NCBI GenBank assembly: GCA_009602725.1 | Contig: WELB01000134.1 | Coordinates: forward strand, 215,251-250,833 | Direction: 5' to 3' | DNA length: 35,583 bases | Source of the DNA: Spirogloea muscicola | Taxonomy: Eukaryota; Streptophyta; Zygnematophyceae; Spirogloeales; Spirogloeaceae | Shown here: positions 2,726 through 35,583 of the stretch, piece after piece | Numbering within the stretch: position 1 is the first letter of the stretch | Layout: each line of letters opens with the position of its first letter | The notes under the pieces: model-generated | Seen by the model: only the letters and a program-made list of their open reading frames with translations | What the model was told of the DNA's origin: nothing | The model's database searches: none | Position numbers and translations under genes: made by a program

Positions 2726-5165
2726 GTAGACCTGGGCTCACGAGCCAGCGGCGTTGAAGCGGCGTGTCAACGCCGCTGGCTTGCTAGCTCGCTAGCTCAG
2801 GTCTATTGCATGCGGCTCTCATTTCCCTCCAATGGTCCATGGCCCACGCCTTGCACCTGCGTGCTGGCGGTGCTCTAGCTGCAGCCTCTGGCTTTCGTCA
2901 AGGGGACTGCTTTCCGGCGGCTAGTCTTTCTGACTTGCGGCTGCTACTTTGAGGTTACCAAGTGACCATCCTACATGGTACTTGCTTACTCATTAGAGAG
3001 GGGAGAGGGAGAGGGAGAGGGAGAGGGGGAGTAGACCTGGGCTCACGAGCCAGCGGCGTTGAAGCGGCGTGTCAACGCCGCTGGCTTGCTAGCTCGCTAG
3101 CTCAGGTCTATTGCATGCGGCTCTCATTTCCCTCCAATGGTCCATGGCCCACGCCTTGCACCTGCGTGCTGGCGGTGCTCTAGCTGCAGCCTCTGGCTTT
3201 CGTCAAGGGGACTGCTTTCCGGCGGCTAGTCTTTCTGACTTGCGGCTGCTACTTTGAGGTTACCAAGTGACCATCCTACATGGTACTTGCTTACTCATTA
3301 GAGAGGGGAGAGGGAGAGGGAGAGGGAGAGGGGGAGTAGACCTGGGCTCACGAGCCAGCGGCGTTGAAGCGGCGTGTCAACGCCGCTGGCTTGCTAGCTC
3401 GCTAGCTCAGGTCTATTGCATGCGGCTCTCATTTCCCTCCAATGGTCCATGGCCCACGCCTTGCACCTGCGTGCTGGCGGTGCTCTAGCTGCAGCCTCTG
3501 GCTTTCGTCAAGGGGACTGCTTTCCGGCGGCTAGTCTTTCTGACTTGCGGCTGCTACTTTGAGGTTACCAAGTGACCATCCTACATGGTACTTGCTTACT
3601 CATTAGAGAGGGGAGAGGGAGAGGGAGAGGGAGAGGGGGAGTAGACCTGGGCTCACGAGCCAGCGGCGTTGAAGCGGCGTGTCAACGCCGCTGGCTTGCT
3701 AGCTCGCTAGCTCAGGTCTATTGCATGCGGCTCTCATTTCCCTCCAATGGTCCATGGCCCACGCCTTGCACCTGCGTGCTGGCGGTGCTCTAGCTGCAGC
3801 CTCTGGCTTTCGTCAAGGGGACTGCTTTCCGGCGGCTAGTCTTTCTGACTTGCGGCTGCTACTTTGAGGTTACCAAGTGACCATCCTACATGGTACTTGC
3901 TTACTCATTAGAGAGGGGAGAGGGAGAGGGAGAGGGAGAGGGGGAGTAGACCTGGGCTCACGAGCCAGCGGCGTTGAAGCGGCGTGTCAACGCCGCTGGC
4001 TTGCTAGCTCGCTAGCTCAGGTCTATTGCATGCGGCTCTCATTTCCCTCCAATGGTCCATGGCCCACGCCTTGCACCTGCGTGCTGGCGGTGCTCTAGCT
4101 GCAGCCTCTGGCTTTCGTCAAGGGGACTGCTTTCCGGCGGCTAGTCTTTCTGACTTGCGGCTGCTACTTTGAGGTTACCAAGTGACCATCCTACATGGTA
4201 CTTGCTTACTCATTAGAGAGGGGAGAGGGAGAGGGAGAGGGAGAGGGGGAGTAGACCTGGGCTCACGAGCCAGCGGCGTTGAAGCGGCGTGTCAACGCCG
4301 CTGGCTTGCTAGCTCGCTAGCTCAGGTCTATTGCATGCGGCTCTCATTTCCCTCCAATGGTCCATGGCCCACGCCTTGCACCTGCGTGCTGGCGGTGCTC
4401 TAGCTGCAGCCTCTGGCTTTCGTCAAGGGGACTGCTTTCCGGCGGCTAGTCTTTCTGACTTGCGGCTGCTACTTTGAGGTTACCAAGTGACCATCCTACA
4501 TGGTACTTGCTTACTCATTAGAGAGGGGAGAGGGAGAGGGAGAGGGAGAGGGGGAGTAGACCTGGGCTCACGAGCCAGCGGCGTTGAAGCGGCGTGTCAA
4601 CGCCGCTGGCTTGCTAGCTCGCTAGCTCAGGTCTATTGCATGCGGCTCTCATTTCCCTCCAATGGTCCATGGCCCACGCCTTGCACCTGCGTGCTGGCGG
4701 TGCTCTAGCTGCAGCCTCTGGCTTTCGTCAAGGGGACTGCTTTCCGGCGGCTAGTCTTTCTGACTTGCGGCTGCTACTTTGAGGTTACCAAGTGACCATC
4801 CTACATGGTACTTGCTTACTCATTAGAGAGGGGAGAGGGAGAGGGAGAGGGAGAGGGGGAGTAGACCTGGGCTCACGAGCCAGCGGCGTTGAAGCGGCGT
4901 GTCAACGCCGCTGGCTTGCTAGCTCGCTAGCTCAGGTCTATTGCATGCGGCTCTCATTTCCCTCCAATGGTCCATGGCCCACGCCTTGCACCTGCGTGCT
5001 GGCGGTGCTCTAGCTGCAGCCTCTGGCTTTCGTCAAGGGGACTGCTTTCCGGCGGCTAGTCTTTCTGACTTGCGGCTGCTACTTTGAGGTTACCAAGTGA
5101 CCATCCTACATGGTACTTGCTTACTCATTAGAGAGGGGAGAGGGAGAGGGAGAGGGAGAGGGGGA
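2726..5165 (+). repeat. Tandem array: eight 305-bp units
   Basis: The unit starts with GTAGACCTGGGCTCACGAGC at 2726, 3031, 3336, 3641, 3946, 4251, 4556 and 4861; a ninth start at 5166 diverges after three bases. All units appear identical by eye. Each has three parts: a hairpin-forming stretch with 15-base arms (first copy 2743-2757 and 2767-2781), the 3' end of the local retroelement (MRL..., ALHLRAG-like and SDLRLL-like sequence, now frameshifted), and a (GGGAGA)n purine microsatellite. The small ORFs in each unit are remnants, not genes. Identity between copies implies recent unequal crossing-over or gene conversion, or an assembly duplication. Confidence 0.95.
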
Positions 5166-5350
5166 GTAAAGGGAACCCCAACTGAATGTCTGGGGCTACA
5201 CTTAGCTCAAGCTACTGTTTTTCTGTGTATGCCTTGCCATGCTTGGCAGAACATGACCATCAGCTTGATCAGCTTTGCCGGGTGTGGAGCTTAGATGTCA
5301 TACAAAGGCTCCGCCACTGCTAAACGCCGGCGACCGTGCAGCCGTCCAGC
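5166..5350. other. Intergenic gap, array to RST1 3' end
   Basis: About 185 bases between the tandem array and the RST1 stop codon. It should contain the RST1 3' UTR and polyadenylation region (minus strand). I see no clear AATAAA-type signal and no other feature. Confidence 0.4.
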
Positions 5351-17907: not shown

Positions 17908-20349
17908 ATGGCGGCGGCGGCGGCGGCACCGGCGGCGGCGGTGGTGTGCGGGTACGCGCTGACGGCGAAGCGGTGCGAGAGCTTCTTCCAGGCGGAGCTG
18001 CTGGAGGAGGCGGAGCGCCTGGGCGTCGAGTTCCGGCCGCTCGACGCGGCGCGCCCGCTCGAGGGCCAGGGCCCCCTCGACATCGTCCTCCACAAGCTCT
18101 CAGTAAGCGGCACTGAGAGCGCCCACGCCTCGTGTTGCCATAGATGGCTCTTCCAATGGCTCTTCCAGTGTAAGGCAATGGCTGTGGGAGGCCAGCCCAG
18201 AAGAAAGAGCTCGCCCATTGAGGATAGGGGCTGGAACAGCCAGCCCAAAAAAGAATGGACAAAGTACGAGAAGGGAGCCAGGGGAAGCGCTAAGAAAAAC
18301 AAGCACAAGAAGAAACAAAGCAATTACGAATGACTCAGTAACCCCTGCTGAGCAGCCGCAGATCAGAGATGCTAGGGTCCTGGAAGTGGGTCCCCAGGAC
18401 AGAGCCAGAGGAGTGTACAAGGCAGTAAGACTCTTCCAGTAGAGGGCGATGGTTCAAGTCTCGAAAGGGCCGGAAGGTGCAAAAAGCGGGACACAGTGTT
18501 GCCAATGCTCCCCCAATTGGTTTCGCCAATTGTGGCACCCCTCACGTTGGCGATGGGCCGCCGTCGCCGGCGCAGGGAGAGGCCTGGAAGGAGGCGCTGG
18601 CGCAGTACAAGCGCGACAACCCGCACGTCGTCATCCTCGACCACTTCGACAGCGTCCAGCGGCTCAACGACCGCGTTACCATGCTCGAGGTTCGCGGTTA
18701 CCCATAGCTTAACCAAGATACACTATCCTGATGTGGGCCTCATCCTTGACTCCACCGCGGTCTAAAAGCGACGGTCGCCGTGTGCGCAGGCGGTGGAGCT
18801 CCTGGACCAGGCGAGGCTGGGCGCGCCGGCGGCCGTGCCACGTCAGCTTACTGTGCCCGAGGGCACTGACCCAATGGACATTCCTGGTCTCATCGCTGAC
18901 GCCGGCCTCCGGCTACCGCTCATAGCCAAGCCCCTCAAGGCCGACAGCTCGTCCAAGTCGCACAACATGTGCTTCGTGCTCAAGACCAGCGCGCTGTCGC
19001 GCCTTACACCTCCGCTGGTTGCCCAGGTACGCACCTGGTGCTTCATACTCTGCCTCGTATGACACATTGCGGCCCTCAGGACAAGCTTGTCCTAGTGTTG
19101 AGCTCGTGGCGCAGCTGCTGGACGTGGTGCTTCATGCAGGAGTTCATGAATCACGGCGGGCTCCTCTTCAAGTTGTACGTGATTGGCGAGAAGCTGATGG
19201 TGTTCAAGCGGCAGTCGCTGCCAGACATCCCACTCGAGTACTGTGCAGACAACACTGGCAGTGCCAACGGCGGCCATGAGGAGCCGTCCTTGGGCCAGGA
19301 ACCGGAGCAGGTACTCATCATTTCTTGGGCATCTGCTCAGAGCCTAAGTTCGGAGGACAGAGGCATCTCCTGTCTGGTGTGTGGTATGCTTCCGACATTG
19401 TGCTTCATGTGAGCTGCACTTAGCAGGCTGGCGGGCACGAGGATGGTATCATGGAGTTCAACAAGATTTCCAATCAGCACCTGGAGGAAGAGGAGCTGGA
19501 CAACCTGCGGGTACGATGCGCCTACTTAGCCGCACCAATGCAGAAGTTGATGCTCAGGTCGTACGTGTGGACCCCGTGATCCTTGTCCACCTGCAGTCTT
19601 CAGCCTGACTTAGAGGCTGGCTGCTCTATTGTACATGCAGGTCGTGGACCCTCCGCCGGACTTCATGAATGAGCTCGGGCGACAGCTCAAGGGCCTCCTT
19701 GGTCTCCAGATGTTCAATGTTGACGTCCTCCGGGAGAACGGCAACGGTGACAAGTGAGTACTTGAATGGTTTCTGCCTTACTTCCTGATGTGGGTATGTA
19801 TTGCTCCTATGTCCTGCACACCTGAGCATCGTTCAGCCCAGCAACAATATAAAACTTTCCCATGGTAACTTCCAACTGCTCAACAGTTTAGGCCTTGGGT
19901 TGTAAACGAGTTGCAAATCTTATCAGGTGTCAACAACGCCTACTTAAGAAAGTGCTCTGGATCTCTCCCCTGTCCATGCTGTCTTCTTATCAATAGCGCT
20001 TGCTCACACCTAAGTAGTGGCCTCGCTGTGGTGGCATATTGTGGAATGCAGGTACTACATTGTGGACATCAACTACTTTCCTGGGTACGAGCGACTGCCT
20101 GAGTACGAGCATTTCTTCCCCAAGTTCATCCGGCGGCTGGTCGACCGGGCCAACCAAGAGGTCGCCGAGGACGCTGTCACTGCCATTGCGGCAGAGCCTG
20201 AGCTGAAGATGACGACGCCAACACCGTATCGCCAACTAGCGAGCAAGCGGCGGTGGAGCAAGCTCAAGACGTGCATGCTTCTTGCCAAGCCGCTCATGTC
20301 ACTGTCCAGTCTCACGGCTGAGCTTGACCTGTCCGATCCTCTGGATTGA
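17908..20349 (+). CDS. ITPK: Inositol 1,3,4-trisphosphate 5/6-kinase (ITPK), 7 exons
   Basis: An ATP-grasp kinase that phosphorylates soluble inositol phosphates on the route to phytate and, for some plant ITPKs, makes 5-InsP7, linking it to phosphate signalling. Exons: 17908-18102, 18576-18689, 18790-19026, 19140-19310, 19427-19510, 19641-19753, 20052-20349; total 1212 bases, 403 aa, all GT-AG with matching phase. Family marks: VVCGYALTAKRCESFF near the N-terminus, HVVILDHFDSVQRLNDR, the nucleotide-binding IAKPLKADSSSKSH (Lys about residue 150), EFMNHGGLLFKLYVIGE, SLPDIPLEY, and the metal-binding DINYFPGY at residues 310-317. It is longer than a typical plant ITPK1 (about 320 aa), with an Ala-rich N-terminus and an extra C-terminal tail. 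Intron 1 (473 bases) holds an antisense retroelement tail. Which ITPK subclass it belongs to is not resolved. Confidence 0.93.
18188..18440 (-). mobile_element. Retroelement 3' end in ITPK intron 1
   Basis: Bases 18188-18382 are the near-perfect reverse complement of 1079-1261, including the hairpin (18227-18246), the A-run (T-run on the element's sense strand) and the 'SISDLRLLSRGY, stop' ORF end. Similarity to the fragment near 765-800 continues to about 18440. The element is antisense to the host gene and lies wholly inside the intron. Confidence 0.8.
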
Positions 20350-20928
20350 CCCATGTGGATATCTGACGTCAACTTGGCGTGCTGTTGATGAGCGTGACTG
20401 CTTGTGGTGCTAGTTGTGGATGAGCGTTGTCACCTTACCTTTAAGCTTCCCTTCTGGTTACTCTTTTATTTTTTTATTGACTACAATCAAAGTAATGAGC
20501 TCTGAATTATCAGGCCTGCCCTCTGCAAGTCCTGGTGTCTTGCAATTACTACCTGAGCATTGCTGTCGCAGTTTCTTGTCTAAGAAGTCCAGCATGCCTG
20601 TGAATTGCATCAAGGCCAGCAGTAGTCTTTGGGCATGCAGCTGCATGGGATGCACATTGGAAGTTGTCGTTCACTTGCAAGAGTTGGTAAACGCGTCGGT
20701 ACAAGGATGGCACATAGCCAAGAACCAGATACACCTGAGGTCGACAAGTACCTGCGTTACATCACCAAATTGCTGCAATATGGTGCATAACCTTCTTCTT
20801 AGGAAAGTCGCAAATTTGGACCATACAATGCACAACCTACTACTAAGTCAACCGACAATTTCATGCTTCACTATTACGAGTACTCAGAAGTGCTGCGAGC
20901 CATCGGTGGTCGGTTGGCAGGTTGCACC
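20350..20928. other. Convergent intergenic region between ITPK and LTO1
   Basis: 580 bases between two stop codons on opposite strands, so it should hold both 3' UTRs. A T-rich stretch at 20462-20480 follows the ITPK end. No RNA gene, repeat or coding similarity was recognised. Confidence 0.5.
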
Positions 20929-22407
20929 TCAAAAAGTTTCGCCTGCACTCTCTGAATGGAGGTAGCCGCGATACTCTGGACGGACGCCAAGCACTGAAAC
21001 AATTGTCCTGAATTTGGCCCTCAGCACCTCCAGCTTGTCGTGAATGCTCTCATCCTTGGAACAGGGATGCAAGACTGGCGCTTTAGAATATCGGCTCAAG
21101 AGAGGGTGCACCTAATCTGTATAAGAGCATGACTTCACATCATATAACAGTACCCATGTAAGTCCTAAAGAGTCTGAGGACAGATGAATTTTAGGAGGCT
21201 TTGCATGTCGGGAGAGGACCTGCGGGTGGAGCAAAGGGAAGGTTTCCAGGAGGTGACCGAGCTGCTGTATGCTCCTCTGAGCTCTGCATGTGGCTCAGAA
21301 TACGACGACACGGTGACTCACTGGGGGTTAGGGAGCAAGATGCGTGCACATTGAGCTGGGGCATTGCTGCACAAGTGACCAAGGAATGGGCGCTTGGCAA
21401 GCATATGCACATTGACAAAACCAGTAGACTGTCAAGAACAGAGCTACGAACTCAGGGCTCAACGATCGCAGTCTCTAGAGCGTCAGAAGGTGGGTGCAGG
21501 CAAATTGGTCGACCGGGGCAAGAAGATGCCGGGCTCGAGCTCTGAGGCCCGCGTCCACACGGTTATGCAGCCAAGATAGAAGCCCAGCTCCTCGCCTGCA
21601 CGGCAAGCGCGCCTCAGCAAAAAGGTCTCGCTCGAGGTCGGGGAGCCCCAAGCCCGAGTGACCATGCAAGAAGAGCCAGATCCTGCAATTGAAGCTAAGG
21701 ATGGCCTCTGATAATGTGCTCAAGAGCAAGGGTGCGGAAGACTGCTGCCACTGAGTGGCAGAGGACTTTCGTGACATCTCGCCCTTGTTTGGCATAGGCT
21801 TTGGTTTTGTGGTTCTGGTTCCTGGGACTAGAGACTGTAGGGTCACATCACCACTCCTGAGCTTTCAGGTGAATGCAGATTGCTTATGAACCCTACAGTC
21901 TCCAAAGCCAAGACCAGTTGTCAACTTAGAGTCCTTGTAATGCAGCGCTTGTTGCAGCCAAGAGAGAGCCCAGAGCGCGGCCTCTTACCCATCTGGAAGC
22001 CAACCCGAAGGCCAGCGTCCCGTCCCTCGAGCAGCCCGGCCTCAGTGCCATCCCTGCTCGTCGCAGACGTCCCGCAATGACTCAGCTTGTAATGATGGTC
22101 TCAGAAGCCCGTTGAGGTGAAGTGGCTGGATGCTCAAGCCGTCATGGAGTCACGTGGTCATGAGCAACTCATGCAGGCGGCTGCACATGCTAGACCTGAT
22201 CTTGCAGTCAGCCCCAGATGAGCTTAAAATTCAAGTCCATCTTCCTCTGATCCCAGGACTAGCTGTGGGCAGCGAGGGGTCAGCCGAACAACTCATGCAG
22301 GTGGGGTGCAGCAGATGCGCATACCGGTAGCCGTCCTCGTAGCCCTCACGTAGGTGCTGCACCTCCAGGTCCACTGACGAGTCGAAGATGTCGCCAGAGC
22401 TGTCCAT
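20929..22407 (-). CDS. LTO1: LTO1/ORAOV1-like adaptor (Yae1 domain), 5 exons
   Basis: LTO1 with YAE1 acts as an adaptor that brings the cytosolic Fe-S assembly machinery to the ABC protein ABCE1/Rli1, needed for ribosome recycling. Minus-strand exons: 22325-22407, 21989-22053, 21514-21595, 21220-21283, 20929-21054; 420 bases, 139 aa (human LTO1 is 137), with phases 2, 1, 2, 0 all matching. The N-terminus has FDSSVDLEVQHLREGYEDGY, followed by the glycine-spaced Yae1 motif (GTEAGLLEGRDAGLRVGFQM, then GEELGFYLG), a helical middle, and VLRAKFRTIVSVLGVRPEYRGY near the end. The protein ends in Phe; known LTO1 proteins end in Trp or another aromatic that serves as the CIA-targeting signal, so this is compatible. 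It is divergent from the next gene and convergent with ITPK. Confidence 0.9.
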
Positions 22408-23033
22408 GGACGCCGCACCAATGTGCAGTGCGTGCGACGCGCTAGCAGCGTAAGCTGTCTTGTGAAGGCGTATGCCGTGTCGGTGCTGCGACACGCCAAA
22501 GCTGACGGCGGGAAGCGGATGTGTCGAAGTGGCCAGGTCAGGAGCTGAAGTGAGCCGCTGAAGTGGCACACGACGCCCTTGATCGGCACGGAGCTCTGAG
22601 GCCTTCAGGCACCCGCCTTGGCTGCAATGGCGGATCCTTTGTGGGCGGTACGTCAGGTGCAGCGTGTGCTGAGCAACAAGAGCCACGGGGAAGTTGACCC
22701 AGAGAGGCCCGAGAAGATGTAACAGTTGGAGAGGGGACTGCGGCAGGTAGTTGTAAGGTGGACAATGAGAAAGGAAAAGGCCTTCCAATGTAAGGCTTGT
22801 GCGACAGGAAAGAGCTGTGGTGTAAGGGGCAAGAGGGGGGAGAGAGACGAGCCGAGTGAAGTAATGAAGGCGAGGTGTCTACGATATGGGGTCAAGTAAG
22901 GCGTGAATGGGAAGCAGAGAGGTGGGGCGGGAGGNAACAGGTATGCTGGTAAGGATAAGGTGGGGAGGGAGGGAGGAGGGAGGGAGGGAGGGGGAGGGAG
23001 CTCTGAGCTTAGCCAGAGTGGAGCGCCAGTGTC
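22408..23033. promoter_or_regulatory. Divergent promoter region, LTO1 and unknown gene
   Basis: About 625 bases between two start codons facing away from each other. The right half is G-rich on the plus strand, with a (GGGA)n tract at about 22960-23000 and one unresolved base at 22935. The left half is open on the minus strand without recognisable domains and may be 5' UTR of LTO1. No specific element was identified. Confidence 0.45.
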
Positions 23034-26000
23034 ATGGAGGCGCTGAAGCGGCTGGAGGCCGTGCAGCGCGTGCTGCAGCTCCTGGCCGAGCACGGCGCCG
23101 GCAACGGCGCCGGCGACGGCGACCGCCAGCTTGCGGAGATACTGGCGGTGCTGGTAATGCAGCAAACCCAAGTCGCAGCAACTCACGGCAGTGGTTGTGC
23201 GACTGTGCTCATTGTGTGCGAGCCCACTATCGTTGCTAAGTACAGTAGTATTTCTGCTGGCCTCCTGGCAGGCGGCGGGAAGTGCGAGCGCGGCGGAGCT
23301 GGAGGCGCGGCGCCTGGCGCTGGGCGAGACGCTCCTCACTGTGAGCTCGGCACCTTGCCTCAATTTTGTCTCAATTTTGCCTCAGTCTGCCTCAGTCTTG
23401 CCTCAATCTTGCCTCAGTCTTCAGGCGGCTGTCAGGAGCTCAGCGCCTCCGAGGATAACGCGGCGCTGCTGCAGCTGCCTGCAAAGCGCTTGACCAATGA
23501 GCGCTGAATGACGAGCCTCAGCGCCGCTTGTGCAGCTGCCGGCGGGGGTTGTCGAGGGCGCTGCAGGCCTCTGCGGCTCAGGCAGGGCAGGTGCAGGAGC
23601 TGCACTTCAATTGCTACTTCGACTGCAACGACTGAAAGCCTGACGCCTGAACCTCAAGCTCTAGGCATGCGTTGAGGTGTTGAGCTGTGCTGCCTGTGCT
23701 GTGCCAACAGGTAAGGCACTTGTGCATAACGTGCACGAATGCAGCTCTGCCACAAGTAGGATCCAATGGCAGCTTGCAACTTGAAAGTGGCCCTGGTGGT
23801 GCACAGGCTCCAGAGAAGGAGCTGATGGAGCTCCGAAGGACGGGGGCATAGCACGTGTCGTCGCAACGCAGCAGCAGCGCCGTCATACCATCGCACCCTC
23901 TGTAACACGGCAGCAGCCGCCGGCGGTCAGCTTGCCGGCCATGGAGCGCGCACGGTCGACACTGGAAGACTTTATCAGGTAGAACCCCCTTTGCTGGAGC
24001 GCTGGAGCGCTCGAACCGCTCGTTCCATTGGTAAGAAGTTGCTGCTGGTCACACAGTCGACTGGAGGACCTCGTGGCCTTCAGCCACGTTGCCCACAGAT
24101 GGGGCACAACACCTGCCATCCTGACGCAGCCGCTCGGCTGGTCGAGCTCTTGTGGATCAGAGCAGCTCGTACTTCATATTCCACGGGCTGGACAGCCGCC
24201 GGCCGGAGGACGTTTGCCGTCACCTCCCCACTCTCTGCTTTGTCGAGTCCTTCATCTATCAGGTGCATGACCACCCGTCACCTGGGTTTGAGCCACTTCC
24301 AAAGTGCTCATATAGTGCTCATTCTGGAGTCAACATTCATCAGAACACAGACAGATACTGCTGAGGAGGTCAAGAAAGTATATTGCTAGCTTTGATTGGA
24401 TTTGCTGGACTTGCTGTTCCAATGACTGTGTTTGGCCTCCTGGTTGCAGCTCGACGAAGCAAATGAAGTGGCTGTTGGACCCACCGCAGATGATCTCACA
24501 GGTGACGACCACAGTGCATTGACATGCGGAGCTGCAGAGGAGGGCATGGAGCAGCTGAAGGAGCTGCTTAGGATCCGAGGTGTCCTGTTTGACAGGTGGG
24601 TCTGGAACGTTTGCGAGGTGCTCAGAGCTCCTACTTCATATTGCCAATTGTAAGAAAATATTCAGGACCATGCTTAAAAGTGCGCAGAGGACAAGGTCTT
24701 ACTATGACTTTTGGCTTTGGTAGCCAGCCTTACTATGTCTTGTACGATAGACTCACAAAGGCGATAGCATGCAGACTGAATGCCGAGCTGGCTGAGGGCG
24801 TGGGGTACTGGGCGCTGGAGCGCGAGCTCTGCGAGGCCGTGCGGAGCGGAAGGCTGGCAAGGGTTCTGGCCCAGCTTTAAGTGTCTGCGCAGAGTGCAAG
24901 CGCTGCTGCCTGGCGAGCACCAGAGTCTGATGCAGAGGCATACCATTTGGTATCTTTGCAGGTTGAGAGGGAAAAAGTTCTTCTAGCATTGCGGTGGAAG
25001 TCCTTTGACTACCGGGTGCTCAACCTTCTGCTATACCGGCTGACCTCCCGACCTGTCAGTCTTACTGACGACTCATCCTGTTGCAGAAGTTGCTCCAATT
25101 GCATGTATTGTCCATTTTGCAAAGCTTCTTCTGCGCAAGCATCTACCTGCTGAATGATCTCGAGACTGCAACTGAACGGCGAGTTGGCATGCCATGCATG
25201 ACCAGGTGAACGAGGCCCACATGTCCTTCTTGGCGGCGTCTGAGACCCTGGTCGAGATCTGTGACGACCTGTGAGGCCCTTTCTCACATTTGAAGGTCCC
25301 GCTCTCTGAAGACATATTTATCAATCTTGCGCACTTGGTGTCCTTTCAACAACTGAAAGTCTGAGAATGTGCCGTCAGCTTGGAGTTTTTTAACTCGGTG
25401 CTCTTGCCTCATTTTCTGGGCCTGCAGCTTGGATTATGAGGTATGGTGTTGTAATTTGCCTGCAACCATATTGCAGTTGCACAGAAGCCCTGCCCGAGCT
25501 TTCTTGCCTCCTCCCCCCCACCTTGACCTCCTCCTGTGAATGTCTTCTTTCTCTCTTGGCCAATTCTGCCGCGAGGGCATACTTGCAAGAGTTTCTTGTG
25601 CTTTGAGTTCCTCATTGGTTAAGAGTCTCCGGCTGTGTCTGATACGCTGCCTTACTGGCCTTTTTCATGGTGCAGGACGACGTCTTGCGAGGCTCCTTCA
25701 ATGTGCTGCGCATGTTTGTGGCTATCTATGGACCTCAAGAGGGGCCCGTTGAGCTGGTGAGCTGTTGCAACACAAGTCCGTGCTACTCACCAACGGCTGT
25801 AGTGTACCTGTCATTTGCCCCATGTGTAGAGTTTCTTGGCCCCTGAATACTGGCCTGAATGTCTTGCGGCTGTTCGTGTCTGTGAAGGCAAAGCTGATCG
25901 GAGATGTAGAGGAGACCTATGAGACTCTTCTTGCTGGTCTTGAGCCCAGCCTTGCGGAGTCGTACCGCCACCGCTGCGAGGAGGCGGTCCTACAAGGTAA

Positions 26001-26272
26001 TACTCCAGCAGAACTGGCACTACTCACTCGGCCTGTGGCAGCATGTATTGAAGTCTTCCCTTTGACGGTGAGACTCACTCCTTGCAGTCCACTCCTATCA
26101 AGCTGCACCCTGGACTCGCTTTCACTGTTGGTGGCCGTGTGCACTGGGGTGAGCAGGAGGAGGTGGAGGCAGCGGTCGGCACGCGCTGGGCACCTGGAGC
26201 ATACCGGGGATCATCAGCGATGAGCAGGCCTTCCGGGAACGCTGCGGCGTCGCTGGAGCAGAGCATGGGTGA
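23034..26272 (+). CDS. Conserved plant protein of unknown function, about 12 exons
   Basis: I recognise this as a plant-conserved family without a known role, but cannot give a name. Proposed exons: 23034-23153, 23272-23340, 23914-23978, 24166-24262, 24450-24595, 24775-24862, 24962-25054, 25206-25270, 25428-25440, 25676-25756, 25888-25996, 26157-26272; total 1062 bases, 353 aa, phases closed. Characteristic runs: RARSTLEDFI then SSYFIFHGLD, HLPTLCFVESFIYQ, LNAELAEGVGYWALEREL, FDYRVLNLLLYRL, MSFLAASETLVEICDDLLDY, FNVLRMFVAIYG, YETLLAGLEPSLAESYRHRC and LGTWSIPGIISDEQAF. It looks soluble and mostly helical, with no signal peptide or membrane segment. One exon is only 13 bases. The start and the stretch 23341-23913, which may hide one or two more exons, are the weakest parts. 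Confidence 0.75.
23355..23424 (+). repeat. TGCCTCARTYT short tandem repeat
   Basis: About six imperfect 11-base units (TGCCTCAGTCT, TGCCTCAATTT and variants) just inside intron 2 of the unknown gene. Its C/T-rich nature could act as a polypyrimidine tract; otherwise it is a simple repeat. Confidence 0.75.
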
Positions 26273-26290
26273 CTGCCCTTGTGGGGGGCT

Positions 26291-26470
26291 TTAGTCCTCC
26301 ATAAACCTTTTGCGTTCAAGAAGCAGCAGATTTATGCCGACATATAGTATGCAGCAATTCGATTCTGCAGATGCAAATATACCACCCGTAAAGTTCTCAG
26401 GCCACAGGTCCGAGGGCAAATGGACGCAGATTGCACTCCGGCTGCAGAGATAGTCGGTGTTGCCAGCATA
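26291..26470 (-). other. Possible coding fragment, unrecognised
   Basis: The minus strand is open over a stretch reading SLPYAGNTDYLCSRSAICVH then LPSDLWPENFT, preceded by a CCCTGCAG acceptor-like site and followed by a GT donor-like site; a downstream frame stops at 26291. The residue composition looks protein-like rather than random, but I recognise no family and no joining exon. It may be a gene remnant. Confidence 0.2.
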
Positions 26471-26792
26471 GGGCAGTGACTGCAGGGCGAGACGGCCATG
26501 AGAGTTTGGCCAAGAGTTGGGCAAGAGGTGCCAGCTAAGTGATTACGTGCTCTGGGTCTTGGGGAGGCATATTTCGACAAAGACTGAGGTTGAGTCAGCA
26601 TCAAGACTGAAGTGCGCTGGCGGTGCAGAGCAAACGGGGAGTCTGCTTCAAGTTCAGTATCAAGGTGCTCAGTCTACTGGTTGCATTTGTGGAACTCATA
26701 AGTGGCTATGCAGCTAGAGCCCACAGCATGACCATGTATTGAATTGGTGCCATACGTGACACTTGCACTTGCTCAGCTGGCTAGTAGGCCAG

Positions 26793-27074
26793 ACAAGCAG
26801 TGTAACACGCGCGAGCCCCAGAGACATCGAAGCTCGGCCCTACAAGGGCTTGCTTCAGCAAGCTCCAGGTCTTCAGCAACTTGAGCTTGCAGAGAAAGGA
26901 CTAGGTGCTGGCCTGCCAGGTTCCACTGATGGGGCCCAAATTCTGACGGCCACGCTGACAAAGTGGAACTCGAAGCACGTCATAGCTGCCCATGACGAGC
27001 AGCGACGTGCGCACCACCAACGAGCCAGTTTTGATGTGATGTCAGTGTCAAGCGAGGAGGCTGAGGGCTGTTGA
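26793..27074 (+). other. Possible coding fragment, unrecognised
   Basis: A plus-strand frame reads RASPRDIEARPYKGLLQQAP, GLQQLELAEKGLGAGLPG, DGAQILTATLTKWNSKH and ends RASFDVMSVSSEEAEGC, stop. The composition is plausible for a soluble helical protein, and the upstream frame 26581-26717 is similarly open. No family was recognised. It could be the last exon of a small gene or a domesticated or decayed repeat, since the 3' hairpin of the local retroelement follows at 27110. Confidence 0.25.
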
Positions 27075-27104
27075 GAAGATGAAGCAGCTCTTTCAGAAGG
27101 CGGC

Positions 27105-27175
27105 CAGGGCGGTGGAAAGCCAGCCCACAATAGAATGAACAATGTTCACAGGAGCCGGAAAGCGCAGATACCATC
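27105..27175 (-). mobile_element. Retroelement 3' hairpin module, antisense copy
   Basis: GGTGGAAAGCCAGCCCACAA followed by TAGAATGAACAATG matches, with substitutions, the module at 699-745 (AAAGCCAGCCCAAAAAAGAA then TGGACAATG). Only the 3' end is recognisable here. Confidence 0.45.
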
Positions 27176-27649
27176 ATGGATGCCTGCTCAGTGTTGAGAT
27201 ATAGTCACAGGCTCGTCACTCGGGCATCGCAAATGTGCAGTGGAGAGTCAAAGACATTGGGGTTCTGAAAAGCCCCACGTACAGCAATACTTGTGAGAGT
27301 GTGACTCTTTTGTTCGCTGATTTTGACTCTCACTCAGAAGGCAACTATTGTGGGCCACGTTCCGTCTGGACGTAAAATCAAAGGTGATGGCTGAGGTGAA
27401 ATGCGGCCACAGGACAACATGGCCACAATCCACCATTTTCATGAAGCCGCATTGGGCCAACTACTGAACACGGCTACATAGGCAAGCCCGTGACGTACCT
27501 TCTGCAGAATGTATTGTCTTAGCATGTGTCAAGCTCAAGATGGAGCTGAAAAGTCGGTCACCCGTTCTGGTACATAACACCTTTGAAATTACAGTAGACG
27601 CTTCAGACCATGGTGCTGGGGGGGGCGAAGGCGATGCAAACACATCTCA

Positions 27650-27941
27650 AAGTACTTGCCAGCTCCTGCAGAAGCAACAAAGAAGCAACAAAGCAGAGAG
27701 CTAGAAAAAGAGGATGGAGAAGGGGAGAGCGAGTGAGACAAAGATGAAAGGGAGGAGAGCAAGTGAGAGAGAGCTGACAAGGGAGAGAGCCGACGAGGAA
27801 GAGAGAAAGGAGGCACACAGATATGTATACATACGTGCATAGAGTGAGACAGAGATTGTGAGTGAGCGCGACAACGAAGGGTGAGGAGGAGTAGAAGTGA
27901 GGAAGAAAGAGAGAGACGGACGGGGGGGGGGGGGGGAGAGA
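27650..27941 (+). repeat. Long polypurine tract ending in G-run and N
   Basis: For nearly 300 bases the plus strand is mostly A and G (GAGA-rich), ending in a run of about 16 G at 27922-27936 and an unresolved base at 27942, exactly where the left arm of the big inverted repeat begins. Such tracts are hard to sequence and assemble. It is unlike the flanking gene sequence. Confidence 0.85.
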
Positions 27942-27942
27942 N

Positions 27943-29045
27943 CCGCGGCCGGACTGGCCCTCGGCAGCCCCATTGGTTGCGGCCTGTGCTTCGCTCCGGC
28001 TGCCAGAGTGACCGCCAGCTGCACCGCCTGGTGGCGGCGGCAGCACGAGCGCAAGCGAGTCCGGCTTTCCGGTGCTGCCGCCAAATGTGGGCCTCGGGTG
28101 TGGGGGCGCCCGCGACCGGCTCCACTGCCGGGGCATCAGCGCAGCTGCTGGCGCGGCAGTAGCGGCGATGGCGGCGGTGGCAGCCATGCCCCTCGGGCTG
28201 TGCTGCGTGACCTTGGGCGACCAGCTGGGCCACACAAAGTCGACCCGCCGGATGAAGAGCTCAGGCACGGGCTTGGGCAGCGGCGGCTGCGTGCCCGCCG
28301 CCGAGGCGGCAACGGCGGCGGCCGCGTAGACGTCGGCAGCCTCGCGGGCCGCGCGCAGCAGCCGCATGTGCAGCAGCACGTAGTCGTAGCTCGACGGGTC
28401 CACGCTGAAGAGGTACCTGCGCAGCCCCAGCCAGCAAACTCGGCAGACAATCAGCAAAACCATTAGCAAAATTACCACTTACTGCACATTTAGCATGGCC
28501 CTGCCGCTGCAACTCAGCCTCATTCTCGTCCTCTTGTTGTTGCCCATTCTGTACTTTGCCTAGAACTGTATAACTCTTCATTTCAAGTAGATTGTATTCC
28601 AGTTAGCTGACAGTATCTTCAGTCGTAGGCTGGCCATTTCCCAGCCCTCGGCCCCTTTGGACGAGCTGCCGCTTCTTCAACGTCTCGTCCTCTTGTCCAT
28701 TCCAGCCGGGCCTTCTTGCCGGCTTTGGCCGTGCTGGCCGAGCTCTAGCTGCAGCCTCCAGCATTCGCCAAGGGGGCTGCTTTCCGGCGGCTCGCCTTTC
28801 TGACTCGCGGCTCCTAGCTAGAGCTTACTAAGTGATTATCCCACGACGCTCTTTGCAACGACCATCCCAGCTTCAAGGAAAAACGGGCAATGTGATAAAG
28901 ACGGAGGAGGCCGACCTCTGCGGCAGGCGGTGGAGGTGGGCGAGCATCTCCACGCCCGCCGACGGGCCCTGGCCGGCCTCCAGGACCCTCTGCGCGGCAG
29001 CGGCAGCGGCAGTGGAGTCAGCGCCACTGGTTCAGGCGGCGGCGG
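27943..29045 (-). pseudogene. Left arm of inverted repeat: truncated inverted copy of the kinase 5' part
   Basis: This arm is the reverse complement of 29169-30271, apparently without mismatches (mirror positions sum to 58214). On the minus strand it carries copies of kinase exon 2 (28916-28989), intron 2 with its retroelement insertion, and the first 474 bases of exon 3 (27943-28416), where it breaks inside the coding sequence at the N. The ACT and catalytic domains are missing, so it cannot make the kinase. Confidence 0.9.
28616..28835 (+). mobile_element. Retroelement 3' part in the left arm
   Basis: Bases 28754-28831 encode ASSIRQGGCFPAARLSDSRL then LARAY and a stop, the family's C-terminal signature, and a degenerate hairpin (GGCTGGCC...CCCAGCC) lies at 28628-28645. 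The mirror copy in the right arm is listed separately. Confidence 0.7.
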
Positions 29046-29059
29046 AGGCGGAGCCGGCG

Positions 29060-32000
29060 ATGGCGGCAGCGCCGCGCGACGGCGCCAAGGCCGCCCGCAT
29101 CAAGAAGGCGCTGCTGCAGGCGCGCCCTCGACGCCGCCCGAGCCCACAAGCCGCAGCCTTTGCCGCCGCCGCCGCCGCCTGAACCAGTGGCGCTGACTCC
29201 ACTGCCGCTGCCGCTGCCGCGCAGAGGGTCCTGGAGGCCGGCCAGGGCCCGTCGGCGGGCGTGGAGATGCTCGCCCACCTCCACCGCCTGCCGCAGAGGT
29301 CGGCCTCCTCCGTCTTTATCACATTGCCCGTTTTTCCTTGAAGCTGGGATGGTCGTTGCAAAGAGCGTCGTGGGATAATCACTTAGTAAGCTCTAGCTAG
29401 GAGCCGCGAGTCAGAAAGGCGAGCCGCCGGAAAGCAGCCCCCTTGGCGAATGCTGGAGGCTGCAGCTAGAGCTCGGCCAGCACGGCCAAAGCCGGCAAGA
29501 AGGCCCGGCTGGAATGGACAAGAGGACGAGACGTTGAAGAAGCGGCAGCTCGTCCAAAGGGGCCGAGGGCTGGGAAATGGCCAGCCTACGACTGAAGATA
29601 CTGTCAGCTAACTGGAATACAATCTACTTGAAATGAAGAGTTATACAGTTCTAGGCAAAGTACAGAATGGGCAACAACAAGAGGACGAGAATGAGGCTGA
29701 GTTGCAGCGGCAGGGCCATGCTAAATGTGCAGTAAGTGGTAATTTTGCTAATGGTTTTGCTGATTGTCTGCCGAGTTTGCTGGCTGGGGCTGCGCAGGTA
29801 CCTCTTCAGCGTGGACCCGTCGAGCTACGACTACGTGCTGCTGCACATGCGGCTGCTGCGCGCGGCCCGCGAGGCTGCCGACGTCTACGCGGCCGCCGCC
29901 GTTGCCGCCTCGGCGGCGGGCACGCAGCCGCCGCTGCCCAAGCCCGTGCCTGAGCTCTTCATCCGGCGGGTCGACTTTGTGTGGCCCAGCTGGTCGCCCA
30001 AGGTCACGCAGCACAGCCCGAGGGGCATGGCTGCCACCGCCGCCATCGCCGCTACTGCCGCGCCAGCAGCTGCGCTGATGCCCCGGCAGTGGAGCCGGTC
30101 GCGGGCGCCCCCACACCCGAGGCCCACATTTGGCGGCAGCACCGGAAAGCCGGACTCGCTTGCGCTCGTGCTGCCGCCGCCACCAGGCGGTGCAGCTGGC
30201 GGTCACTCTGGCAGCCGGAGCGAAGCACAGGCCGCAACCAATGGGGCTGCCGAGGGCCAGTCCGGCCGCGGAACAAGGAACTGGGGCGGTGATGGAGGCA
30301 GCAGCGGTGGCGGCGGCGGCGCCGTCCGCCACCTGCTGAGCACCGCCCGGTCACTGCTGCTGCCCAGCAGCCTCTTTGCAGACGGAGGGGGCGGCGGCAG
30401 CGGCGGCGGTGGTGGCAGAGGTGCCGGCAGCGGAGGTGGCAGCAGCAGCAGCAATGGCAGCGGCGAAGGCCTGTCAAACCACGGCGTCATGGAGGGATTT
30501 GAGCTCACGATGGCGTACACGGACAAGCCCGGGCTGCTGCGCATGGTGACCAGCGTCCTCGGCCACCCCGCGGTGGAGCTCGACGTCCGCGAGGCGCACA
30601 TCTTCACCACCAATGACGGCATGGCGCTCCAGGCATGCCCTTCTTCCTGTCGTGGCCTCCTGCTCACACTCACTTCCAGTGTCGTCGTCTATCTACGGCG
30701 CATGAGGCTTGACTGGGTGATGGCCGCCTCCATCTTGGGCGCAGGTGTTTGTCGTGACAGGCCAGCCTGGACGGTGGTCGATGGAGGAGCTGCAGCTCAA
30801 ACTTGAACTGGCCATGGCTGAGGCCCTGCGCTTGGGGCCGTCGCTGTCGGTCAGCCCGGAGTCGAGCAACCGAGGGTCCTCCGGCCGCGGCGCCGGCGGC
30901 AGCAACTGCAGCAGCGGCCGCGGCCCCTCGGCAGAGAGTGTGGCGCACGCCGCTGCCGAGGTGCTGCAGCAGCAGGGCCTGGCGTCGGCTGCCGATGCAA
31001 CTTTTGCCCATGGGGGTGAGTACGAGAGCGCCAACGAGCAGAGCCGAGGGCAGTCGAGACGGAGCTCGTCCACGTGCGGTGACGACGGCGACATCAGCTG
31101 GATAGACGAGGCGTCAAGTGGTGCGGCATCGCCGCAGCGCTGGCCTGCATCTGGGGGGGCCAGCACGTCGAACGTGGGTGAGGAGGGCGGCGCCAGCAGC
31201 AGCAACGGCGGCAGCGAGAGCTGGAGCGGCGGTGGTGGAGGGAGGCGGCGGCAGCGGCGGCGGCGGCTCGTGCGTGATGCGCGAGCGCTGGTAGAGCAGA
31301 TGGATCTCCAGGACTGGGCCATCGATTTCCGCGAGCTCACGCTGCGCGAGAGCCGTGGCACGGGCTCGACGGGCAGCCTCTACGCCGGCACGTACCGCAG
31401 CCAGGACGTGGCTGTCAAGGTCATGGTCGCTGGGCAGGATGTCGGCGCGAGTGCGGGCGACTTGGACGAGCCTGTCGGCACTGCGGCCGCCGACATCCTG
31501 GAGACGTTTCAGCAGGAGGTCAGCATAACCAGCAGAAATGTACCTAAGTGGACTCCCTGGGAGCCACTCAGAGACTTTTCTTGAATGTCATTCCTCACTG
31601 GCAGGCGGCTCTTTGTCTAATTTGTCTAATTGCAATTATTAAGACGCCTGCTTGCCACCCAGGCTCACACATTTTGCTCGATATGTATGTTAGGCTACTT
31701 ACTGAGCCCTGTCAATATTCCAGACGACACAGCCTGCATGTTTGTACTCGTGGTTACGGGTTTCTGCTGCTGTGGGCAGGTGATGATGCTGAGGCGGATC
31801 CGGCACAAGAATGTGGTGCAGTTCATCGGAGCCTGCTCAGCGTGGCCGTTGCTCTGCATTGTGACCGAGCTCATGGCAGGCGGGAGCGTGCGTGACGTCC
31901 TCGACCGCCGCGGCCGCGGCTTCGAGCCCGGCGAGGCGGTCCGCATCCTTAGGGACACCGCGCATGGGATGGACTTCTTCCACAAGTGCGAAACCATGCA

Positions 32001-33644
32001 CCACTTATTTCCTCCTCCAAGCTACCTGCATTGCCAGCCTTGGTGGAACATCATGGAGGACAACTGCTAGCTTGATTGGCAAACTCTTTCTATGCTAAGG
32101 TTGGCTTGTCGCTCACTTGGCAAGTCATGCTCGTGCATGACCTGCTGGCAGGCGGGGCATGATCCACCGCGACCTCAAGGCTGCCAACCTCCTGATGAAC
32201 GAGCAAGGGGTCGAAGCACAAAACAGAAGCACCAACTCTGCTTTTGCCTCTGCCTCCCATGCAAACTCGCGTTCAGGTGCTGAGTTGCAAACCCTTACTT
32301 GCAATGGTTGCACTTTGGAGCGGCAGGTGGTGAAGGTGGCGGATTTCGGAGTTGCGCGCGTCGAGCCTGGCCCGCTGCGCCGCGCCGCGAGCATGCGGGT
32401 GCTGTCTGGCATGGAGGTGGCCGTTCTGAATTCACTGCAGGACCAGCACCCAGAGGCTGCAACTAGGACCTCTTTCACCAAGAAGGACGAGGTGGAAATG
32501 ACGGCAGAGACTGGGACATACCGCTGGATGGCACCCGAGGCAAGCTGATGCTTGCTGCTCGTTCTGAACTGAAGTCTCTGGATGTTTGTCCTGTCATAAT
32601 TGGAGCATATCTCATTACTGGATTCAGTGATCCTTGCAGGTCTTGGAGCATCAGGTCTACAATCACAAAGCGGACGTATACTCATACGGCATCACTATCT
32701 GGTAAGACCATCCAATGTCTTAGTTGCCTGGGTCGCTGTGGAAGAACCCTTAATGATCTTTTTAACGACGGGACCAAGAACTGTGCCTGGACCTGCGATA
32801 CAAGCAAGGGCCGCTGTGCGAACTGGGCGAGATGGGATGTGAATGTAACGCCAGACTGATCAGAAATGATATCCTAATTGTGCAGGGAATTGCTCACAGG
32901 CGGCATTCCATACGCAGGGCTTACGCCAATACAAGCTGCGTATGGCGTCATCCTCAGGTAAGAGCAGCCTGGTGCTTGCAATTCGGCGCCACAAGTGCGT
33001 CTGTGCACCTCTTGCAACGGCGCCTTCGCATCTACCCTACTGCACATTTGGCTGTCCTACTTTGCCAAGGGCTGTCAAGCACTACCTCAACGATATCACC
33101 AAGACCTGCCTCTGCTGCATCCTTTTGCTATTCCGAGCACAAGGCCTTGCAAAGATGGCGCCCTCATATTGGCATCATCGACTGCAGTTAATTGCAATGT
33201 GTCGATTGCAAATGAAGGCCACGTGCAACACCTTTGTCTGTGACCCCCTCAGGCTTACCTCAATACAGACTTCTGCATTCATTGAGTGGCTTCCCTTGGA
33301 AATGCTTCATCTTGGCTCTGCAGGCAGCTTAGACCTGATATCCCGAGCACGTGGCCACCAAAGCTAGCCTCCCTGGCGCAGGCCTGCTGGGACGAGGACC
33401 CCGCCAACCGGCCAGAATTCAGCGAGGTGAGCTCGGCATTTCCAACAGCCAAGCAGGACATGCGCGGCAGCAATCACAGGGGTATCGAATGTGCTCAATT
33501 TCAGAGAATGACTCTTTGCGCTTGCCACTTACTGACTACACAGTCAATGCTCCTTGCCAGATCCTGCTCTTGCTTGACAAATTGGAGTACGGCAAGCTTC
33601 CCCCCTCTCGCGCATGGCGCCCGTTCTTCTTGCTAGGCAAGTGA
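29060..33644 (+). CDS. ACT-domain Ser/Thr/Tyr protein kinase (STY8/17/46 type), 11 exons
   Basis: Plant ACT kinases of this class are cytosolic dual-specificity kinases; Arabidopsis STY8/17/46 phosphorylate chloroplast transit peptides. Exons: 29060-29119, 29225-29298, 29798-30632, 30745-31518, 31780-31985, 32152-32209, 32327-32539, 32640-32701, 32886-32957, 33324-33426, 33561-33644; 2541 bases, 846 aa. N-terminal region with HLHRLPQRYLFSVD; Ala/Gly/Ser-rich linker; ACT domain about 276-350 (DKPGLLRMVTSVLG, VFVVTG); second low-complexity linker; kinase domain about 513-830 with ATP lysine 548 (VAVK), HRDLKAAN with Asp 657, DFG at 675-677, GTYRWMAPE ending at 740. All catalytic residues are present. 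Introns 1, 3 and 7 would use GC donors. The first exon is the weakest: without the GC intron, an in-frame TGA lies at 29180. Confidence 0.87.
29379..29598 (-). mobile_element. Retroelement 3' part in kinase intron 2
   Basis: Mirror of 28616-28835. It lies inside the 499-base intron 29299-29797, antisense to the kinase. Its ORF tail (29383-29460, minus) ends at the family's usual stop. The insertion explains why this intron is longer than most of the others. Confidence 0.7.
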
Positions 33645-34061
33645 AGATATGGCCAGTTGGGCAATGGGCCACCTATTCTTTCATACACCAATTTTTGCAC
33701 GAAGTTAGCAGTAGTCCATCTGGCCGATGGGCACGGCTGCAGCATGCTTTGGTAGCCGCATGGCTTTTCGTGTTGCAATTTACGTGACAGGGCTGCCGCT
33801 TGAACGAAGTACCTGGCGCTCACGAGCACAGGAGAGACTGCCAAGCAATTTGAGCTCCTGATTTGGAGGTCTTGTTGAGCTACTGAGCGGCCTGAGGCTG
33901 AGAGTCACAGCCAACTTTGTGACGCATAGTTGAGCCAAAGTGAGGGACCTGCAGACAAGGAGGCTGGCAGCCTGACTGATGCACACATGGCCAAGTTGAC
34001 CAGAAGATAATCTGGCATCAGGCATCTGGGAGTGGAGGGTTTGGCGTGGCTTCCAGGGGCC
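33645..34061. other. Convergent intergenic region, kinase and UBA gene
   Basis: 417 bases between two stop codons on opposite strands; expected to hold both 3' UTRs. I recognise no repeat, RNA gene or coding similarity. Confidence 0.5.
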
Positions 34062-35583
34062 TCATGGAGCCAACTGGGCGAGGGCGCGCTCCCGGTCATT
34101 GTCGTACATGGCAAGTGCACCGGCCACGGCCTCTGAGCTGAACCCCATCTCCGTTAGCTGGCCGTACGCGGAGCAGAAGTCCACGACCTGCAGCGCACTT
34201 CTGTGTAAGTCAACTTCAGCTGGCATCTCTGCGAACAATCTTTACTACTTGCTCTAAGTCAGAACTGCTCACCTTGTTCTGGACATCGCCATAAGTTGCA
34301 ACGGCGAGGACAACTGCCTCCGTCCGGAGGCCCATGGCGGCGTACTTGTTCACCACTGGGTCGTCCGCGAAGCCCTGCGCCGGCACGCCGCCGCGAGCAC
34401 CGAGCAGTGGGCTTGAGCAATGTGGACTGCCAAGCTGACGAGCTGCACTGACCGCCACCGCCGCCTGCACTGACCACCATCGCCACTCGACATACCCCAG
34501 CGACGCTGCCATTGGAGTAGCCAGGCGCCAGGCCACCGTCGGCAGCATGCCAGCCACTGGCGGCGCCAACGCCGCCATCCCGCTCCTGCTGCTCCGCGTC
34601 AGCCAGGATCTGGCGCTCCAGCGTGAAGTCCGGCTGGAAAGTGCTCCGCGGCACGTCGCCGAAGTGCGGCGAGAGCTGGACCTGCTTGCCACAGAGGTAA
34701 GCACGCCGCTTGATGGGCAGTGGAAACATGCAATGGGGATTATGAAGTGGCTCTCCCAAAGGGGGCAAGGGCTGTCAACAGAAACGACAAGGTCCAAGGG
34801 GTCGAGCATCGCCTTCCCCAAGCTTTGCCTGTAGAATAATCACTTTAGTAACCTGTAAGATCACTTAGTAACCTCTAGTTAGGAGCCGCAACCGTTTTCC
34901 CAAAGCTCTGCCTGTAGAATGATCACTTAGTAACCTCTACTTAGGGCCAATTTACACTCGACCGGTCGGTCACGGCTGTAGGGTACGTGTCGCGCATTGT
35001 ATGGACGCTCGAAGTCAAGACTATGCCAATTCGAGGCCAAGGCGAGGCCAATGAGTGAAGGACCGGTCTAGTGTGAATTGGCCCTTAGGAGCCGCAAGTC
35101 AGAAAGGCTAGCCGCCAGAAAGCAAATTCCTTGACGAAAGCCAGACGTGGTTTGCACCCGCGATCTCCGGCTTGGGCTGCAGCCTGGGGACTGCTGAAGC
35201 TGGCAGGAAAGAAGGAGCAGCGCTACGAGCTGCAGGTGGTGGCGCAAGGGACGCTCACGGCGGGAGCGACGCGGTACTCGGGCTTGATGGCGACGCGGAT
35301 GCCCGAGCCGCCTGCCACGGCAGCAGGGGCCCACGCTTTGGCAGGTCAGCGCAGCGCCGGCCCGAGCTGACGGCCGGCGCTGGCTCCGCAGAAGCCTTAG
35401 AGAATACAGATATGTACAGATTGATATTGATGTTATGACGATATCATTGTGCTAAGATTGTATTCTGCGGCGGCGGCGCTGGCGGCGCGGACTTGCGGAG
35501 GCGGCGAGCGGGACGGGCGGCGGCGTCCGCGCGGGCGTCCCGACGGGCTGCGCGATGCGGGGGTAGAAGCTGGCGGCCTCCCC
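34062..35583 (-). CDS. Plant UBA-domain protein, C-terminal part; runs off the right edge
   Basis: Minus-strand exons: 35493-35583 (partial at the window edge), 35259-35311, 34496-34681, 34273-34374, 34062-34187; phases 1, 0, 0, 0 match. The order of conserved pieces fits a land-plant family of small ubiquitin-associated proteins: ASFYPRIAQPVG, then SGSGIRVAIKPEYRVAP, then LSPHFGDVPRSTFQPDFTLE with RQILADAE, then DPVVNKYAAMGLRTEAVVLA, and finally a UBA-like three-helix end with LTEMGFSSEAVAGALAMYDN. UBA domains bind ubiquitin, so a role in ubiquitin-dependent sorting or turnover is likely but inferred. The intron 34682-35258 is enlarged by a retroelement tail and a MITE. The N-terminus is outside the window. 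Confidence 0.85.
34832..35145 (-). mobile_element. Retroelement tail(s) in UBA-gene intron, interrupted by a MITE
   Basis: On the minus strand, 35145-35088 then 34943-34905 read as the family tail (SGFRQG, LAASLSDLRLL, stop, AGTGATC). A 141-bp element splits it at 34944-35084. A second, partly duplicated tail end lies directly next to it at 34832-34895: both contain CACTTAGTAACCTCTA and GCCTGTAGAAT. The element is in the same orientation as the host gene and lies within the intron. Confidence 0.75.
34944..35084. mobile_element. PIF/Harbinger-like MITE (141 bp, TTA target duplication)
   Basis: 24-base terminal inverted repeats at 34944-34967 and 35061-35084 match at all but two positions; they begin GGGCCAATT and end at ACCGGTC. 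The element is flanked by TTA on both sides (34941-34943 and 35085-35087), the three-base duplication made by PIF/Harbinger transposases. It is too short to encode a transposase. Removing it and one TTA restores the uninterrupted retroelement tail seen at 34870-34893, which proves the insertion point. Confidence 0.9.

Follow-up and report, generated by a model that had tools for sequence, protein, structure and literature searches.

A perfect inverted repeat at the 5' end of a RAF-like protein kinase gene in Spirogloea muscicola is very probably an assembly foldback

The stretch of Spirogloea muscicola DNA analysed here (the window, 35,583 bp) contains the 5' part of a protein kinase gene folded back on itself as a long inverted repeat. 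The question raised by this locus is whether the organism carries an antisense copy of its own gene or whether the second arm arose during assembly. Natural inverted duplications feed double-stranded RNA and small RNAs, and the repeat shares with them the anatomy of a gene copy able to form a hairpin; it differs in that the junction in the window is unsupported as DNA of the organism. If the repeat were real, which we consider improbable, a duplication too young to have gained a substitution would have put an antisense copy in place of the promoter in one of the three sister kinase genes, and the resulting self-targeting hairpin could silence all three. Based on comparison with two other contigs that hold the region, C97 and C164, we conclude that the left arm is very probably a foldback introduced by the assembly (or by a read or library) and absent from the DNA of the organism.

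The inverted repeat and the gene it contains

The two arms are complementary at 1103 of 1103 positions and enclose a spacer of 123 bp, with coordinates (Table 1) that agree with those of the first-pass annotation. At the inner edge there is a mismatch at offset 1104, followed by 5 more matches, after which the likeness is gone; a repeat finder that extended the run beyond this mismatch gave a length of 1109 bp. On the outer side the likeness between the two arms is lost at once, and the left arm is bordered immediately by one of the three Ns of the window (17896, 22935 and 27942). The first-pass annotation correctly ended this arm at an N but counted 16 G in the run before it; the run has 15 G (27922-27936), and 5 bp separate it from the N. 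The right arm has its outer end in mid-exon, where an open frame (29736-30806) runs across it.

The kinase inverted repeat is far beyond chance. A search for inverted pairs with a minimum length of 60 bp, a minimum identity of 97% and a separation of up to 20 kb listed four pairs in 235,583 bases of the contig that holds the window (C134), and the kinase repeat was the only one more than 98% identical. The arms have taken no independent substitutions, and 0 substitutions in 1103 bp places an upper bound (95%) of 0.27% on their divergence, compared with about 12% between C134 and C97.

Table 1. Features of the kinase inverted repeat, in window coordinates.
Feature	Position	Strand	Reading
GGC tract GGCGGCGGCGG	29035-29045		Fold start; C97 contig break within ~5 bp of the inner end of the tract
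Single N	27942		Taken as a contig join concealing missing sequence; compare the N at 22935
Left arm	27943-29045	-	Probably a spurious reverse-complement copy (foldback) of the 5' part of the kinase gene
Spacer	29046-29168	+	Genuine 5' part of exon 1; on C97 it runs straight into the right arm
Right arm	29169-30271	+	Genuine gene: remainder of exon 1, intron 1 and beginning of exon 2
Remaining part of the RAF-like protein kinase gene, with the kinase domain exons	30272-32701 (end approximate)	+	PF07714; PDB matches

The gene belongs with the RAF-like MAP3K protein kinase genes, and a protein kinase domain is present. The frame 31630-32070 matched PF07714 in Pfam with an E value of 2.6e-13, and MAP3K12, KSR, B-Raf and CTR1 were among the best 60 of the 227 PDB sequences that matched the kinase frame. 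On our reading of the splice signals, the right arm runs from within exon 1, through an intron 1 of about 500 bp bounded by GT...AG (about 29299-29797), into the 5' part of exon 2; an antisense copy of exons 2-3, as had been proposed, does not fit this structure. Nor was the proposed start of the kinase within the spacer established. The frame opened by ATG 29060 meets an in-frame TGA (29180-29182) before it reaches the conserved exon-1 peptide RVLEAGQGPSAGVEML, which lies in the same frame, and in both C97 and C164 this peptide is likewise preceded by an in-frame TGA at the equivalent position. ATG 29060 is thus a doubtful start for the kinase protein, and the TGA may be read as a sign of a hidden intron, of another start or of a decayed 5' end. 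By eye, the upstream exons may resemble those of plant kinases of the STY8/17/46 type, which have an ACT domain N-terminal to the kinase; a search for an ACT domain upstream of the kinase returned no Pfam family for two upstream frames, even at E≤5.

Sister copies and the shared break point

A search of the 153.1-Mb genome of the organism (471 contigs) used the right arm as a query and scored 40 of 453 candidates. Among these there were 49 matches, four of which covered the whole arm: the two arms of the window, C97 (88%) and C164 (82%). The remaining 45 were short, and 43 of them were the dispersed intron element described below. A query made up mostly of the spacer (29040-29175) matched the window and C97 only, C164 being N there. 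On C97 the spacer match (C97:263638-263775) adjoins the arm (C97:262525-263635) in the order of the right arm, which indicates that the spacer goes with the right arm and that the left arm is the odd one. The right arm is collinear with the sequence that follows it on both C97 and C164, and C97 carries the left flank (27000-27941) as well, in the order expected and without a change of strand. Neither C97 nor C164 showed a second arm, the latter being all N upstream of exon 1 in the stretch taken. The third copy, on C164, spans at least 29150-34301 at about 86%. To judge from these alignments, two or three diverged versions of the region appear to be present in the genome, through duplication, triplication or hybrid origin.

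A plus-strand alignment against C97:258500-275000 covers 18870-27941 and 29037-34192 of the window in blocks that are 83-89% identical. When the ranges spanned by hits of 100 bp or more close to the expected diagonal are counted, C97 covers 14,228 of the 15,323 positions of 18870-34192; the sole uncovered stretch, 27942-29036, is the N and nearly the whole left arm, leaving one arm without a counterpart in the relative and with an N at its end. In the place of the left arm, C97 has 726-752 bp that are absent from the window, then a single N and then exon 1. The left flank matches as far as 27916, which gives the 752 bp, or, under looser scoring in G/A-rich sequence, as far as 27941, which gives the 726 bp. 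It is likely, not certain, that the match reaches the base next to the N, the last 25 bases being G/A-rich and weakly aligned. C97 also has 1.1 kb extra at window 27643/27644, which has no bearing on the argument about the left arm.

The segment missing from the window was itself compared with the genome as a 755-bp query from C97, which gave 58 matches with 40 of 55 candidates scored. Among these candidates it matched itself over 753 of 755 bases and, besides C18, otherwise short stretches; its last ~315 bp matched two places on C18, at 99% and 89%. The closer of these (C18:372704-373018) is the counterpart of the 315 bp before the C97 N (C97:263777-264091), is entered via a shared GCC tract, and runs on into other sequence on both sides of the shared piece. 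We infer that C97:263777-264091 is a probable chimeric contig end beside a single N and not a natural copy.

The C97 N sits 19 bases before the ATG that matches 29060 and maps to about 29040-29044, the exact place varying with the alignment of the GGC repeats. The fold point of the window (29045/29046) is the inner end of the GGC tract, so that the C97 N lies within ~5 bp of it. On C164 the sequence starts at about 29132, inside exon 1 and 87 bp inward of the fold point; the N run that precedes it is at least 4.6 kb long and may be something other than a scaffold gap. Two copies would then seem to have been misassembled beside one point via GCC/GGC tracts, C97 onto another locus and the window onto itself. 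The stretches that match the kinase 5' end and promoter appear doubtful on C97 and are all N on C164 in the stretch taken, and the real promoter and 5' end of the kinase seem to be absent from the window.

Foldback or inverted duplication

Four observations support an assembly foldback: the arms are identical, an N stands at the outer edge, the window lacks the segment that C97 carries there, and the C97 contig breaks at the fold point. An artefact is favoured because it explains all of these jointly. The first-pass annotation had leaned towards an assembly cause from the placement of the N at the arm boundary, and this leaning appears well supported by C97, less firmly by C164. In the mechanism that we propose, the contig of the kinase gene would have ended shortly before exon 1, at a GC-rich (GGC)n tract, and this end would have been extended along its own opposite strand for 1.1 kb, entering via the complementary (GCC)n tract within exon 1. 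The false end would then have been joined by a single N to the contig carrying the true upstream flank. The responsible step could have been a chimeric read, a gap filler or a graph path. Two published reports (PMC12870357, PMC6218980) describe palindromic foldback chimeras as a known artefact of long reads and of whole-genome amplification. These chimeras are similar to the repeat here in that a sequence is followed by its own reverse complement with identical arms; in contrast, they occur in reads, whereas here the structure is in a scaffold. Several points stand against a foldback. About 315 of the 726-752 bp on C97 are doubtful, being C18-like, and may be no part of the truly missing sequence; the C164 break is displaced from the fold point by the 87 bp given above; and a recent true inverted duplication would have identical arms too.

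Such a duplication would be real and very recent, would have replaced the promoter of the gene, and would give rise to a hairpin transcript and thus to small RNAs against the kinase and perhaps against its two sister copies. The arms being perfectly complementary, a transcript across both could fold completely, and their identity taken alone is compatible with an age below ~2% of that of the C97-C134 split. Furthermore, foldbacks are uncommon at gaps in this contig. C134 15251-250833 (window included) contains 17,377 N in 15 N runs, 8 of them single, and when 4-kb flanks on each side were considered only the run at window 27942 was bordered by a near-perfect inverted repeat. A rate of 1/15 indicates that a foldback is not routine at gaps in C134 and counts mildly against an artefact; the artefact reading thus rests on the C97 comparison. 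The chance that either outer end of a randomly placed inverted repeat adjoins an N run is about 2.5 in 10,000. A duplication, however, would also demand that the upstream segment present on C97 had been lost and that the outer end of the new copy had fallen exactly on an N, and the inner end coincides with the C97 contig break. A real duplication should read through without interruption at either end of the added arm, and the outer end here is an N; nor does a second arm appear on C97 or on C164, within the stretch of C164 that is sequence. We therefore consider a real duplication improbable. The antisense RNA that the first-pass annotation had envisaged gains no support, since the left arm replaces sequence held by C97 and C97 breaks at the fold point; no sign of a dsRNA source emerged.

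The capture of part of the kinase gene by a foldback or terminal-inverted-repeat mobile element is less probable still, to the point of being hardly credible. C134 does contain a foldback-like inverted repeat (C134:131996-132994), with 456-bp arms that are 97.4% alike. Against capture, one arm of the kinase repeat is simply the gene where it is expected, and both C97 and C164 are collinear with it; the outer end falls within an exon next to an N, with no target-site duplication visible; and, among the 40 of 453 candidates scored, whole-arm matches besides the window arms number one each on C97 and C164. An assembly foldback remains our preferred reading. It carries a warning that a single N in this assembly can conceal missing sequence and border a false foldback, and that a perfect inverted repeat ending at an N is not to be taken for biology without reads.

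Other Ns and repeats in the contig

A comparable situation is seen at the N at 22935, where the unaligned block has 93 bases in the window (N included) versus 202 on C97, ~110 bp more. This difference suggests that sequence can be missing behind a single N in this assembly; an ordinary indel between the copies also fits.

The dispersed element of ~110 bp is present within the window in intron 1 of the kinase gene (29370-29484), at 2858-5109 and at 35086-35145. Its copies are mostly 81-86% alike, carry CTCTAGCT / AGCTAGAG near their ends and occur at no fewer than 43 places in the genome. C97 and C164 hold the element in the same intron, which indicates that it predates the split of the copies. 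Eight of its copies in the window lie in an array (2726-5168) made of eight head-to-tail copies of a 305-bp unit at 100% identity, each unit containing one element. This array may be either very recent or a loop introduced by gap filling.

The foldback-like repeat at C134:131996-132994 has a loop of ~90 bp and starts 272 bp from an N run. It contains ~30-bp tandem units by eye and, on the same by-eye reading, looks like a mobile foldback-type element.
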